Shown one piece after another: positions 1,437 through 6,210 of a stretch of 59,037 bases of DNA. Each line of letters begins with the position of its first letter. Position 1 is the stretch's first letter. The notes beneath the pieces were generated by a model, which did not search any database, had not been told where the DNA came from, and saw only the letters and a program-made list of their open reading frames with translations. Source of the stretch: Candidatus Muiribacteriota bacterium (GTDB taxonomy: Bacteria; Muiribacteriota; DAOVTB01); the NCBI GenBank assembly GCA_030633305.1, contig DAOVTB010000005.1, positions 1 to 59,037 on the forward strand, written 5' to 3'. Position numbers and translations under genes: made by a program.

Positions 1437-1560
1437 CCTGCGTCCTGAATGAGCGAATCTTGAATTTTTATGCATTCGTCTAAACCTCAACGCACGTTTG
1501 TGCGCCTCCGGTTTATCCAAATACATAAAAATCCAACCTTCATCTCATTCAGAACGCAGG
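1437..1560 (+). repeat. Nested-hairpin repeat, family A copy 1
   Basis: This imperfect palindrome begins on the base after the TAG of the propeller gene. The outer arms CCTGCGTCCTGAATGAG and CTCATTCAGAACGCAGG differ at one pair. A middle stem follows, and an inner hairpin has stem CGCAC/GTGCG with loop GTTT. The whole element could fold into one long hairpin in RNA or a cruciform in DNA. Related copies lie at 3961-4087 and 5963-6086. Confidence 0.85.
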
Positions 1561-1622
1561 TAGGGGTGAAAAATAAAAAAAAGAAAGAATAAAAAAGAAA
1601 AATCTCACACGAAGGCAGGGGA

Positions 1623-1793
1623 CAAAATAGTCAATATAAAAGGGGTAAGAAGTGAGTTTTGTGAACTTGAAGTTCAAGTTCATGAAAGTTACCCTGACCC
1701 CAGCGCCAGATAACTTTAACCTGCCAATTTTAGTAAAATGATACGACCCCAGCGCCAGATAACTTTATTCCACCCAAATTAGTAAAATGGTAC
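1623..1793 (+). repeat. Intergenic repeat family B, copy 1 plus partial copy
   Basis: Shared landmarks with the other copies are AATATAAAAGGGGTAAG near 1632, an internal arm pair GAACTTGAA/TTCAAGTTC, and GACCCCAGCGCCAGATAACT. The GACCCCAGCGCCAGATAACT segment occurs twice (near 1695 and 1745), each time followed by a TTAGTAAAATG-like tail, so the 3' half is duplicated. Related copies are at 6128-6210 and, inverted, at 45085-45214 and 46859-46989. Confidence 0.75.
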
Positions 1794-1893
1794 AGATTGC
1801 AAAATATTGGAAGTAGCGTACAACCCTCCTAAAGCAATAGCAAAAAAAAGGTTTTACCATGAAGATCATGAAGGAAAAAATAGCAAATAATGT

Positions 1894-1916
1894 AGGGACA
1901 GGCCCCCGTGCCTGTC
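1894..1916. repeat. GC-rich hairpin repeat
   Basis: The arms GGACAGGC and GCCTGTCC (8 bp, perfect) enclose CCCCGT, preceded by TGTAGG. The TGTAGGG lead-in is shared with the element at 42403-42436, which places it in the same loose family. No T-run follows, so it is not a clear terminator. Confidence 0.6.
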
Positions 1917-1925
1917 CAATTTAAT

Positions 1926-1952
1926 GTCATTACCCGACTTAATCGGGTAATC
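1926..1952 (+). repeat. GTCAT palindromic repeat, family C copy 1
   Basis: GTC is followed by the stem ATTACCCGA, loop CTTAA and stem TCGGGTAAT, a perfect 9-bp hairpin. It belongs to a family of five palindromes in this window that keep the GTCAT lead and a CTTGA-like loop while the stem sequence changes. Confidence 0.75.
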
Positions 1953-1970
1953 TATTTCATCCACATAAGA

Positions 1971-2006
1971 AAAGGACGGATTTGGAATCTGCCCCTACGA
2001 TATTTA
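1971..2006 (-). repeat. GTAGGGGC hairpin repeat, reverse copy
   Basis: On the minus strand this reads GTAGGGGCAGATTCC followed by AAATCCGTCC. It is nearly the same as the terminator hairpin at 42403-42424, with two changes in the arms, so the two are copies of one dispersed element. Confidence 0.6.
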
Positions 2007-2098
2007 TCTTTTTACTTTGTCTATCTGTGGTTCAATTCTTCTTCATGACCTTCATGATCTAATCTTTTTATCCGTGCCTCTGTCCCTTTATGTGACCA

Positions 2099-2180
2099 AT
2101 CTACTTTCTTTTCCTCTGCGACCTCAGCGCTCTCTGCGCGAGATCTTTCTTTTTTTAACTCTGTGTTCTGTGGTGAATTT
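2099..2180. repeat. Degenerate TCAGCGCTCTCTGCGCGAG-type repeat, family D
   Basis: The segment carries CTCTGCGACCTCAGCGC, CTCTGCGCGAGA and TCTGTGTTCTGTGGTGA in a row. The same wording recurs at 45216-45286, 46984-47065 and, as fragments, at 46810-46832, 32765-32788 and 44988-45007. These pieces carry no open gene and look like decaying non-coding repeats. Confidence 0.6.
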
Positions 2181-3019
2181 TATCTTTTCTTTTCCTTCTT
2201 TCTTTGTGTGATGTATTCCAGTAAAGAAGGTTTAAGCGCATCATAGTCAATAACTTTACTGATACAATCAAAGCCTTCCTTGAGATGATTTGGGTGATGA
2301 GCATCGACATTTATGATCATTGGTATCTTGAGATCAACACATTTTTCAATTATCCAGTTGCTTGGATAAAATTCACGTGTCCAGCCCCTATAATATCCAC
2401 GAGTGTTTATTTCGACAATAGTTCCTGAAGTTTTAATCGCATCAAGTGTTTCAATGATTTCATCTTTGTACCATGTTGTGTCTTCATCAAAAAAATGAAG
2501 TTTCTGGTTAAATTTTTTGATGATATCCATATGACCAAGAATATCAGGAGCATATTTTAAAACCATTTCACGTATTGTATGATAATAATCATGAATAAGG
2601 TTCTGGACGTTTCCATCATAGATATTTTCAATTTCTTTAATGAATTTTTCTGGTTTTTCATCTATTGAGATAAAGTGCCCCAAAGTTTTATTATATACAA
2701 AATGTACTGAACCTAATGTGTAATCGAGTTCAGGGGAATTGAACCAGTCATAGTTTTCATGACCGCTTATATGGTCTATTTCAAGACCAGTAAGGATCTG
2801 TATATCTGATTTGTATTTGTTTTTAAGGCGATTTATTTCTGAAAAGTAATTTTCTACAATATCAATTTTCATGATACTGCATTCATCGTTTTTATATGGA
2901 GCATGAGATGAAAATCCAAGTTCTTTATATTCCAGTTCTATCGCTTTAATAACGACTAATTCAGGTTCTGTACAACCATCACAGAATTTTGAATGTGTAT
3001 GATAATTTGAAGATAACAT
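2180..3019 (-). CDS. PHP-domain phosphatase, histidinol-phosphatase (HisK) type
   Basis: The product is 279 residues. The metal-binding PHP motifs are in order: NYHTHSKFCDG near the N-terminus, FSSHAPY, GLEIDH, GSVHFV, LGHMDII and NVDAHHPNHL. These histidines and acids bind a trinuclear metal site in HisK-type phosphatases. I chose the ATG at 3019 because AAGGAGA lies seven bases upstream; upstream in-frame starts would run into the kinase gene. It follows the PfkB kinase gene after 22 bases and is probably co-transcribed with it. No other histidine-synthesis gene is near, so the natural substrate could be another phosphorylated metabolite. Fold assignment firm, substrate open. Confidence 0.8.
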   Translation of the reverse strand: MLSSNYHTHSKFCDGCTEPELVVIKAIELEYKELGFSSHAPYKNDECSIMKIDIVENYFSEINRLKNKYKSDIQILTGLEIDHISGHENYDWFNSPELDYTLGSVHFVYNKTLGHFISIDEKPEKFIKEIENIYDGNVQNLIHDYYHTIREMVLKYAPDILGHMDIIKKFNQKLHFFDEDTTWYKDEIIETLDAIKTSGTIVEINTRGYYRGWTREFYPSNWIIEKCVDLKIPMIINVDAHHPNHLKEGFDCISKVIDYDALKPSLLEYITQRKKEKKR

Positions 3020-3041
3020 TATGTTCTCCTTGGAATAGGCA

Positions 3042-3938
3042 TTATTCATTGAGAAATTTTCTAACTTCACTAAGCGTAGGTAAACCATCCCGAGCACTAA
3101 GTTTAGTACAGCTCAGAGCAGCAACTGCAGAGGCGAAATTTACTGATTCTGATATTCCCAGATTATTTAAAATTGCATAGATCATTCCGCCATTGAATGC
3201 ATCTCCTGCTCCTGTAGAATCAACAATTGAATCTTGCTGATATGCTGGAAATATCCTTACATTTCCTTTTTGTTGTATGATACAACCTTGCTGACCCAGT
3301 GTGATTCCCATTATTTCGTTTTTAAATGTGCTTAAAGCCATAATCATTTTTACGGGATCAGTTTCTCCTGTAAGATCTTCAGCCCGATCTTTTGAAAAAA
3401 ATAAATAATCTGCCTGATGAAGAAGATCATGATTTTCAGTAATCTCGCCACCAGCATCGACGTAAATTTTAATATTTGATTTTTTTACCATTTCAGCAGC
3501 TTTTAAACATGCTTCATAATGTCTAAGATCGAAATGGAGTATACGCGCTGATTGTATATAATCAATTTTTAGATCATTTTCAGTAAGTTTTGAAACTGTA
3601 CCTCTATGTCGAAAAATAGTCCTTTTTCCAGAAGTTAATTCACTAAAACAGAATGCAACCTGAGATGTACTTTCTTTTTCTATAATAAGATGGGAAATAT
3701 CAATTTTTTCCTGTTCTAATGAAGAAACAATCAGTTTTCCAAAATGATCATCACTGCATACGCTGATAAATCCTGTATTAAGACCGAGCTTTTTACAGGC
3801 AACCATTGTATTTGCTGATGAACCTCCGCCACGGATTATAAGATCGTCAACGATTCCTTTTGAATCCCATTCAGGGTATTTGTCAATTTGACTGCAAAAA
3901 TCGGTTGAAGCCGAGCCTATCCCTATCACATCTAACAT
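3042..3938 (-). CDS. PfkB/ribokinase-family carbohydrate kinase
   Basis: The product is 298 residues, the usual family length. It starts MLDVIGIGSASTDF, has the RGGGSSANTM substrate-binding region near residue 36, and ends with the PfkB signature DSTGAGDAFNGG, whose aspartate is the catalytic base. It should phosphorylate a sugar or nucleoside at the expense of ATP in the cytosol. The frame is open upstream to 4061, but those extra 41 codons are nested-hairpin repeat sequence, so the ATG at 3938 is the better start. No good ribosome site precedes it; a TATACT box 9-14 bases upstream could mean a very short leader. Substrate not readable from sequence. Confidence 0.82.
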   Translation of the reverse strand: MLDVIGIGSASTDFCSQIDKYPEWDSKGIVDDLIIRGGGSSANTMVACKKLGLNTGFISVCSDDHFGKLIVSSLEQEKIDISHLIIEKESTSQVAFCFSELTSGKRTIFRHRGTVSKLTENDLKIDYIQSARILHFDLRHYEACLKAAEMVKKSNIKIYVDAGGEITENHDLLHQADYLFFSKDRAEDLTGETDPVKMIMALSTFKNEIMGITLGQQGCIIQQKGNVRIFPAYQQDSIVDSTGAGDAFNGGMIYAILNNLGISESVNFASAVAALSCTKLSARDGLPTLSEVRKFLNE

Positions 3939-3960
3939 AGTTATCAAGTATAGCATAACT

Positions 3961-4087
3961 AGCCCGCATATTGCATGAGCGAATCTTGAAATTTTCTGCA
4001 TCAGTTCAAGCTTGCGACGTATAAAAATACGCCTCAGCATGTCCAGACTGGAAAATTCCAACCTTCATCTCATGCAATATGCGGGTT
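3961..4087 (+). repeat. Nested-hairpin repeat, family A copy 2
   Basis: The outer arms CCCGCATATTGCATGAG and CTCATGCAATATGCGGG pair perfectly over 17 bp, although they differ in sequence from the arms of copies 1 and 3. The inner hairpin is CGTAT/ATACG with loop AAAA. The blocks GAATCTTGAA (left) and CCAACCTTCATCTCAT (right) are shared with the other copies. The element lies directly upstream of the PfkB gene start. Confidence 0.88.
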
Positions 4088-4191
4088 GGGAAGTTTAAAA
4101 ATAAAATACGATGAGATCAGCTAGTAAAAAAAACTTGACACTATTACAGAATGTATACAACAATTATTGTATAGAATGAAGCGATGTATTT

Positions 4192-4220
4192 TTGACTTGA
4201 TTTTTTTGGGAATGTACTAT
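4192..4220 (+). promoter_or_regulatory. Sigma-70-type promoter of the Cys-rich exported protein gene
   Basis: TTGACT (4192-4197) and TACTAT (4215-4220) are separated by 17 bases. The start codon lies 29 bases downstream with TAAGGAG in between. A second TTGACA at 4135 has no well-placed partner. Confidence 0.6.
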
Positions 4221-4249
4221 TTTAAAATCATGAGTAAGGAGTAAAGAGT

Positions 4250-5962
4250 ATGGTTAAAGCGATTTCATTGGTATTGATCTTTATGATGATTTTTACAGTA
4301 ACTAATCTGTTTTGTCAGGAAACTGATCTGGATGTTTCGCGTGAAAAAACACGTGGACTTTTTGGAGGAAGACGGTTTTCGGGAAGTAGCTGTCAACCGA
4401 AAACAACTTGTGGAAGTGGAACTAGAATTTTTGGAAATACGTGTAGGCCAAAAACAACTTGTGGTGGAAGTACTTCAACCAATACATGTGGTCCAAAAAT
4501 TACCTGGGGTAATATAATAAAGAAAATATGGGGTGGTGGAGACAATACAAATGATAACATTACCACTAATAATACTAATACCTGGAACAATGATAACAAC
4601 TCTTTCCAGATAAGTAACAATAGTCCGGTATGGAATAATAGTGGAAGTTCCTGTCCATATTCTAGTGGCAGTACATGTAGTACTGGAAAAACTTGTGTTG
4701 GAAGTAATTGTAATGTACAGCAAACATCTAATTCATGCGGTTCAGGTTCCTGTACAGGATACAGCAGTGGCAGTTGCTATGGAGGTTCATGTCAGCCAGG
4801 TGGATTTACAACGAATCTTAATATGAATACCAACTCTTATACAAGAAATACCTCTGCAAGTAATTCCTGGAATGTAGCACCAGTCCAAAATTTAACCAGT
4901 GTTCTCGGTGGGAATCAACAGGTAGCTCTTGCAAATGTAACAAGTGGACAGGGTATCAATGTTAATTCCAATGTAAAATGGGATGTAAATACAAATCCAC
5001 CAGTATCAACACCAACAACAGTATCAACACCAACAACAGGAACTACTACTACAGCTGGAACAACAACTCCAGTTTCTGGAACTACACCAGGTATGGTTCC
5101 AAGTGTACCAATCATTCCACTTCCATTGCCGCCTCCAGGCTCAGCAACAGGTGGAACTGTTTCAATTCCAGGTGGTTCAATAAATATTCCTGGTGTTGGA
5201 ACGATAAATCTTCCGGCAAATGGCGTTTCAATTAACCTGCCATCTGGGATTTCTATTAGTAATGGTCAAATAAAAGTTAATGGTGGAAATATAAATATTC
5301 CCAGTGGTATTTCGCTAACTATTCCTTCTGGAGGAGTATCGGTGAAATTACCTGCTGGAGTCAATGTGAGTAGCACCGGAATGGTTACAGTACCTGGCGG
5401 AGTGTTAAATATTCCAAATGTCGGAAATGTAAATATCCCAAATGGAATCCAATTGCCGACAGGAGCAACTGTCAATAATGGTCAATTGACAATACCAGCT
5501 GGAACAACTATTAAAGTTCCTACAGGAATATCTGTAACAGTTCCTCCAGGTGGAGCAACAGCTAATTTACCCGCTGGAGTCCAAATTGGTAACAATGGAC
5601 AGGTAACTATTCCCGGAGTAGGAACTGTCAATGTAGCAGGCGGTACAGTTACAACAGGAGCAGGCGGAACAGTTGTTAATGTTCCTGGAACAACCACACC
5701 AGTTACCACTCCTGGAACAACCACACCCGGAACAGTTGTTACAGCTCCACCAACAGTTCCAATAGTTCCTTTACCACCACAGAATATTCCTGGAAATACT
5801 GGTGGAGGAAATGCAGGTGCCATTATTGGAGCAATTGGTCAGAATCTTAATAATGGCAGTGGTTTATTAAATACAGGTTTTGGAATTGCCAGTGGCGTTT
5901 TAGGTGTTACAGGAAATGGAAATTTGAGTGGGATCTTTGGATCAATAGCTAGTTTATTTTAA
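4250..5962 (+). CDS. Exported Cys/Asn-rich protein with IP-rich beta-type repeats
   Basis: The product is 570 residues. A signal peptide (about 1-23, ending LFCQET) precedes a Cys-rich block with three related units around QPKTTCGSG, RPKTTCGG and GPKITWG. An Asn/Ser-rich, Cys-dotted stretch follows, then a Thr/Pro linker, then three irregular units of about 50-60 residues dominated by motifs such as INIPGVGTINLP and VTVPGGVLNIP. The last 60 residues are Gly/Asn-rich. Regular I-P-G spacing suggests a stacked beta (solenoid-like) fold, which is inference. The start is supported by TAAGGAG. No known family is recognised; a surface or matrix protein is the simplest reading. The stop codon touches a nested-hairpin repeat. 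Confidence 0.75.
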   Translation: MVKAISLVLIFMMIFTVTNLFCQETDLDVSREKTRGLFGGRRFSGSSCQPKTTCGSGTRIFGNTCRPKTTCGGSTSTNTCGPKITWGNIIKKIWGGGDNTNDNITTNNTNTWNNDNNSFQISNNSPVWNNSGSSCPYSSGSTCSTGKTCVGSNCNVQQTSNSCGSGSCTGYSSGSCYGGSCQPGGFTTNLNMNTNSYTRNTSASNSWNVAPVQNLTSVLGGNQQVALANVTSGQGINVNSNVKWDVNTNPPVSTPTTVSTPTTGTTTTAGTTTPVSGTTPGMVPSVPIIPLPLPPPGSATGGTVSIPGGSINIPGVGTINLPANGVSINLPSGISISNGQIKVNGGNINIPSGISLTIPSGGVSVKLPAGVNVSSTGMVTVPGGVLNIPNVGNVNIPNGIQLPTGATVNNGQLTIPAGTTIKVPTGISVTVPPGGATANLPAGVQIGNNGQVTIPGVGTVNVAGGTVTTGAGGTVVNVPGTTTPVTTPGTTTPGTVVTAPPTVPIVPLPPQNIPGNTGGGNAGAIIGAIGQNLNNGSGLLNTGFGIASGVLGVTGNGNLSGIFGSIASLF

Positions 5963-6086
5963 TCTGCGTCCTGAATGAGGGAATCTTGAAATATATTTGA
6001 ATCAGTCCAAATCTCAACGTACATTAGTACGCCTCGGTTTGGCCAGATACAAAATATTCCAACCTTCATCTCATTCAAAACACAGA
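5963..6086 (+). repeat. Nested-hairpin repeat, family A copy 3
   Basis: The element begins on the base after the TAA of the preceding gene. The outer arms CTGCGTCCTGAATGAG and CTCATTCAAAACACAG pair with three G-T-type differences. The inner hairpin is CGTAC/GTACG with loop ATTA, flanked by CTCAA and CCTC as in copy 1. Confidence 0.85.
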
Positions 6087-6127: not shown

Positions 6128-6210
6128 TGGGGTCACATGGAACTTTTGTGAACTTGAAGTCCAAGTTCATGAAAGTTGCTTTGACCCCTGCGCCAGATAA
6201 GTTATTTCCA
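6128..6210 (+). repeat. Intergenic repeat family B, copy 2
   Basis: It matches copy 1 through TTTTGTGAACTTGAAGT, TTCATGAAAGTT and GACCCCTGCGCCAGATAA, with substitutions. It sits right behind a family A repeat, the same order as at 1437-1793. Confidence 0.75.

Follow-up and report, generated by a model that had tools for sequence, protein, structure and literature searches.

Hairpin repeats behind gene ends of a Muiribacteriota genome: a fold conserved on the strand opposite the upstream gene

The window analysed here is a contig of 59,037 nucleotides (DAOVTB010000005.1, forward strand) from the Candidatus Muiribacteriota assembly GCA_030633305.1. It carries three hairpin elements of 124-127 bp, termed family A (copies c1, c2 and c3), among plus-strand open reading frames (ORFs) and a minus-strand pfkB gene (Table 1). 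A preliminary description made from the letters alone had reported the three hairpins and the start of two of them just after a stop codon; sequence, coordinates and both stop codons were as claimed. Compared with shuffled sequence, folding was strongly favoured (z -8.9 for c1, -8.0 for c2 and -6.8 for c3). The three copies belong to a genome-wide family, the fold of which is conserved on the strand opposite the upstream gene.

Table 1. Family A hairpins and associated features in the window. Scores are those of the covariance model.
Feature	Position	Strand of fold	Context	Score (bits)
Hairpin copy c1	1437..1560	minus-strand fold conserved	directly after TAG 1434-1436 of a plus-strand ORF	133.0
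Hairpin copy c2, CCCGCAT subfamily	3961..4087	minus	after CTAG, without preceding plus-strand ORF; upstream of minus-strand pfkB	134.7
Hairpin copy c3	5963..6086	minus	directly after TAA 5960-5962 of a plus-strand ORF	129.3
Fixed block GAATCTTGAA of c1	1455..1464		minus strand reads TTCAAGATTC, the 3' arm of the folded strand	
Fixed block CCAACCTTCATCTCAT of c1	1533..1548		minus strand reads ATGAGATGAAGGTTGG	
A-rich flank right of c1	1561..1600			

The source genome is a metagenome-assembled genome (MAG) of 4.64 Mb in 350 contigs and is 90.4% complete. An exact two-block pattern matched it 54 times and the reversed control not once. The covariance model search recommended in the preliminary description, carried out with a model built from 30 copies, yielded at least 149 matches genome-wide at E<=0.01; 133 copies with flanks were gathered for the counts of position and fold. 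Many copies are truncated. No Rfam 15 family matched the whole window or 12 related loci above the gathering score, and literature searches found no published description of the hairpins, which are a real and apparently undescribed family. Left-only and right-only halves were considered as autonomous split copies. This was rejected: they are truncations or internal deletions, and no halves paired around a gene were present among the best 100 of 123 and the best 100 of 127 places listed. Exact cores comprised 7 left-only and 3 right-only cases, numbers too small to claim a direction. Two copies (loci L309 and L327) have a similar insert inside the hairpin (GGTGCCAGGGCAC...CTGGCACC), and another mobile repeat may use the family A hairpin as a target.

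Compensatory stem change around fixed blocks, originally read from three copies, was confirmed in an alignment of 30. In the plus-strand fold 26 of 39 pairs change on both sides, giving 156 both-side-changed cells compared to 45.6 in shuffles; 0 of 500 shuffles were as high. The signal collapsed when the partner was shifted by 1-3 columns. In the minus-strand fold 29 of 45 pairs change on both sides (175 cells vs 50.3 shuffled). The outer stem differs in sequence from copy to copy, yet 17-19 of its positions pair above shuffled expectation (130 copies). These tests support the earlier claim of selection on a folded single strand. Neither of the two results that would have contradicted the preliminary description, an absence of other copies or of covarying pairs, was obtained.

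The strand itself had to be corrected. The preliminary description had drawn the fold on the plus strand, but it is on the minus strand, opposite the upstream gene, that the fold is conserved. In 130/130 copies the minus strand gave the more stable fold (mean -66.0 vs -47.8 kcal/mol), and it did so too in 83/83 copies with a neutral tip swapped in; the respective consensus energies were -60.0 and -27.6 kcal/mol. What look like fixed A.C mismatches on the plus strand correspond to fixed G.U pairs on the minus strand, for example G-U in 30/30 and U-G in 29/30 copies. Among private transitions, 73 leave a plus-strand A.C, equivalent to a minus-strand G.U, and 30 do the reverse, with a single column contributing 12; unpaired sites are without such a bias. 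Single changes between the closest copies (first three distance classes) kept pairing in 83/162 cases on the minus and in 25/162 on the plus strand, when about a quarter (about 27%, from the transition share) is expected without selection. This mutation pattern is the one left by selection on the minus strand, as RNA or as a single DNA strand. It can be compatible with selection on each copy or with selection in spreading lineages alike.

A minus-strand fold speaks for structured RNA or single-stranded DNA on the opposite strand, and against the element being a 3'-untranslated region of the upstream gene or a signal for its processing. Thus, the proposal that the hairpin marks the upstream transcript for processing at the gene end lost its support, whereas that of a structured RNA survives as a possible reading, on the minus instead of the plus strand. 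Indeed, the main rival to the interpretation given below is that each copy is a transcribed, structured minus-strand RNA which acts in place in the cell, having spread earlier and now being under selection; as a variant, it could form the 5' leader of a gene on the minus strand, pfkB in the case of c2. The fixed minus-strand G.U pairs, the number of minus-strand pairs kept and the transition bias restricted to paired sites all agree with this. An RNA acting in place is, however, difficult to reconcile with unrelated neighbouring genes, downstream neighbours without common orientation, the missing Rfam match, numerous truncated copies and relatives in Nitrospira which have plainly transposed (see below). 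We regard it as possible, though unlikely.

The association with gene ends held throughout the family. A same-strand ORF ends at most 12 nt from the hairpin in 93 of the 129 copies with a callable left neighbour; beyond these, 18 copies were classed as near, and an adjacent opposite-strand gene was found in only 2. The distance between stop codon and hairpin peaks at 0 and tails off by 4 nt, and some upstream ORFs read into the element and end at its TGA. The adjoining stop codons are TAA (61), TGA (13) and TAG (12; 86 altogether), compared to 202, 96 and 45, respectively, for the ORFs in the same loci. The upstream genes are unrelated, ordinary and diverse, housekeeping genes included. Nothing comparable was observed on the right side, where downstream genes lack a common orientation and the flank is A-rich over about 30 nt (61-66% A at positions 10-30 downstream of the hairpin; 128 copies). 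A location directly behind genes would suit a transcription terminator or a 3'-end stabiliser of the upstream gene. Yet the better fold lies on the opposite strand in all 130 copies and the downstream tract is A-rich instead of a T-run, which makes this explanation barely credible.

Four tRNA genes are directly followed by an element, tRNA-Ser, -Ser and -Arg in locus L227 and tRNA-Glu in L242. Between positions 1200 and 1980 of L227 three different tRNA genes are consecutive, each with an element of its own behind it. In the L227 elements the tRNA 3' end recurs as its reverse complement within the right arm (e.g. GCCA/TGGC), and the stem thereby extends into the tRNA gene. Similarly, the right arm is complementary to the host stop codon, by a run of at least 3 that extends beyond the shared element, in 7/83 copies vs 3.9 expected. 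At L178, L175, L184, L207, L218, L230 and L243 the right arm ends in the stop codon of the host gene as its reverse complement (e.g. TTTTTAG...CTAAAAA). Both kinds of complementarity are points for a purely mutational origin of the covariation, by template switching between the arms which corrects one to the other without selection on the fold. Such a process would, however, yield perfect Watson-Crick arms, whereas the arms retain a bulge, a GG/GA internal loop and G.U pairs that are fixed; furthermore, A.C mismatches on one strand outnumber G.T. We consider this origin very improbable.

Next to the source genome, only one of 190 genomes searched, from another phylum, gave matches. They were weak, with an identical tip (CTCAACGTAY..RTACGCCTCG) and different arms. 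An exact-tip scan over 84,980 species returned at least 119 stretches, among others from Nitrospira, Rokubacteria, Syntrophaceae, Smithella, Geobacter, other Desulfobacterota and the Candidate Phyla Radiation (CPR). Most are situated in large hairpins with lineage-specific arms. The minus-strand fold was at least 15 kcal/mol below the shuffled mean in 56 of 75 tip stretches, and stability was higher on the minus than on the plus strand in 73/75, or in 57/75 with the tip replaced. When 20 members were aligned on the minus strand, the 5' arms had an AGG block, usually CAAGG, in common and the 3' arms a block similar to AACG; the tip is common to all 20, but most of them had been found by the tip itself. 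These members represent several phyla; block ATGAGATGAAGGTTGG keeps its GG in all of them, and the A before it is almost invariant. Two tRNA genes flank the element at the CPR locus L074.

Many element matches were present in each of the 32/32 Nitrospira genomes searched. At one orthologous locus the element is found in 3 genomes, altered remnants in 3 and an empty site, with the two flanking genes about 20 bp apart, in about 20. Full copies of ~200 bp consist of the hairpin as the left part and a right part, with the ends CAGGATGCTGAAAAA and TTTTTCCGCAGCCTG. They possess clear terminal inverted repeats (TIRs), contain no gene and are bordered on both sides by an identical YTAR, namely CTAG, CTAA or TTAG (L297-L302, L306). 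The Nitrospira element is a transposed miniature inverted-repeat transposable element (MITE) with a 4-bp YTAR duplication. This target is known for the IS5 group. Because YTAR contains TAA and TAG, insertion at stop codons follows; in about 11 Nitrospira copies a gene stop is exactly at the hairpin foot. DDE elements of Nitrospira were considered and rejected: the exact ends are not shared, and one has similar ends. In the Muiribacteriota genome, TTAA, CTAA or CTAG, read by eye, precedes most copies of the CCCGCAT subfamily, also where there is no stop codon. This suggests that family A, too, has a YTAR-like target.

A substrate of a REP-type Y1 transposase had been another early proposal for family A, i.e. 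an element of the repetitive extragenic palindrome (REP) or bacterial interspersed mosaic element (BIME) type, moved by a Y1 enzyme related to the REP-associated tyrosine transposases (RAYTs) which acts on the single-stranded hairpin. The source genome has six Y1 genes (PF01797), and Y1 enzymes of the IS200/IS605 type act on hairpins with strand preference. However, the covariance model detected no family A copy at any of the six loci, the GTAG tag is absent, the length is about four times that of REPs, and one element-bearing Nitrospira genome is without a Y1 match. These findings do not support the proposal and leave it improbable.

At the one Y1 locus inspected in detail (L258) GGGTCA/TGACCC inverted repeats were present. 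They resemble another repeat of the window, which reads GGGGTNA...TGACCCC, encloses an inner inverted repeat and lies at 1642-1701 and 6129-6188, to the right of c1 and c3. Because similar repeats flank this Y1 gene, this other repeat is probably the TIR-type element of the Y1 enzyme; a class of Y1-linked TIR-type elements, TIRYT, has been described (PMC3733652). In addition, GTAG-tagged, REP-like palindromes (GTAGGGACAGGCCCCNGTGCCTGTCC and GTAGGGGAGGGTCTGTGACCCTCCC) occur at 1892-1917 of the window and in the right flanks of many family A copies, often after the A-rich tract. The region 4250-5962 of the window is a 570-aa ORF with a Cys-rich N-terminal part and with long proline-, glycine- and threonine-rich stretches; it had no Pfam match.

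We think it fairly likely that the family A hairpins are mobile: each would be a non-autonomous element of about 125 bp, similar to a MITE in the broad sense, characterized by an opposite-strand hairpin and belonging to a cross-phylum group. Copy number, covariation, strand, position and relatives in other phyla were observed. The strand opposite the upstream gene would form the long hairpin, either as RNA or as single-stranded DNA, and this fold would be needed for spread. The fixed internal loops and the tip are presumably read by an enzyme or binding partner, and the helices may diverge through compensatory substitutions in those lineages that spread. Insertion would take place in one orientation directly behind gene ends, probably at a YTAR-like site often supplied by the stop codon. 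Movement was observed for the Nitrospira relatives only; for family A we infer it.

Several points weigh against a mobile element of this kind. TGA stops (13/86) and tRNA ends do not fit YTAR, the empty sites come from the Nitrospira relatives alone, and what connects family A with the MITE of Nitrospira is the tip, the AAGG block and the fold of the minus strand, the arms being no part of it. A scan of 127 family A copies for duplicated 4-, 5- or 6-mers showed no clear excess, whichever offset was used. As to an enzyme, a DDE transposase of PF01609 was not found in the source genome (other DDE families were not searched), nor were an IS110 recombinase (PF01548) or a reverse transcriptase (PF00078) in this 90% complete assembly. 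The integron integrase model TIGR02249 gave matches only below cut-off, the same as in all control genomes, and the Y1 genes are without family A hairpins.

A more far-reaching idea is a cross-phylum mobile class defined by an opposite-strand structured RNA, which would direct integration precisely to gene 3' ends, i.e. stop codons and mature tRNA ends, by reading the gene end instead of a DNA motif; different lineages would have borrowed different transposition machineries. We consider this unlikely. In general, non-autonomous repeats of bacteria are classed as REP or MITE and then ignored. Here, one core structure outside Rfam recurs in distant phyla, is conserved on a defined strand, has RNA-like G.U pairing and is placed with near-base precision at gene ends, those of tRNAs included. 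If the strand result is true, transposons carry a family of structured RNAs, or else an enzyme that reads hairpins and targets gene ends awaits discovery. The abundance of the element in Nitrospira is sufficient for a direct test of movement by genome comparison.

How does family A relate to known systems? The Nitrospira relatives agree with IS5-type MITEs in terminal inverted repeats, YTAR duplication, a length of ~200 bp and the absence of a gene. Family A differs: it shows no duplication, a PF01609 gene was not found in its genome, and the Nitrospira repeats have arms unrelated to its own. The outer arms of family A are inverted repeats which vary between copies. To our knowledge, the usual MITE description does not include a conserved minus-strand hairpin that has fixed internal loops. 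Multicopy sequences of Geobacter genomes have been published, as supplementary alignments only (PMC2700814, PMC2996986); Geobacter MAGs were matched by the tip scan. The Chunjie MITE of Geobacter uraniireducens, compared by description only, is intergenic, 178-235 bp long, and has TIRs, direct repeats and many partial copies (review PMC10969869). REPs associated with RAYTs are GTAG- or CGTC-tagged at the foot (PMC3733652). Family A shares with REPs and BIMEs the dispersed intergenic palindromes. However, it measures 124-127 bp compared to 20-40 for REPs, carries no GTAG or CGTC tag on its variable foot, which follows stop codons precisely, and is not located beside Y1 genes. Integron attC sites, finally, are large imperfect hairpins behind genes, the bottom strand of which is the folded and acting one. 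Family A is without an integron integrase over cut-off, cassette arrays or a consistent R-box (GTTRRRY); yet it likewise is a large imperfect hairpin directly behind genes.
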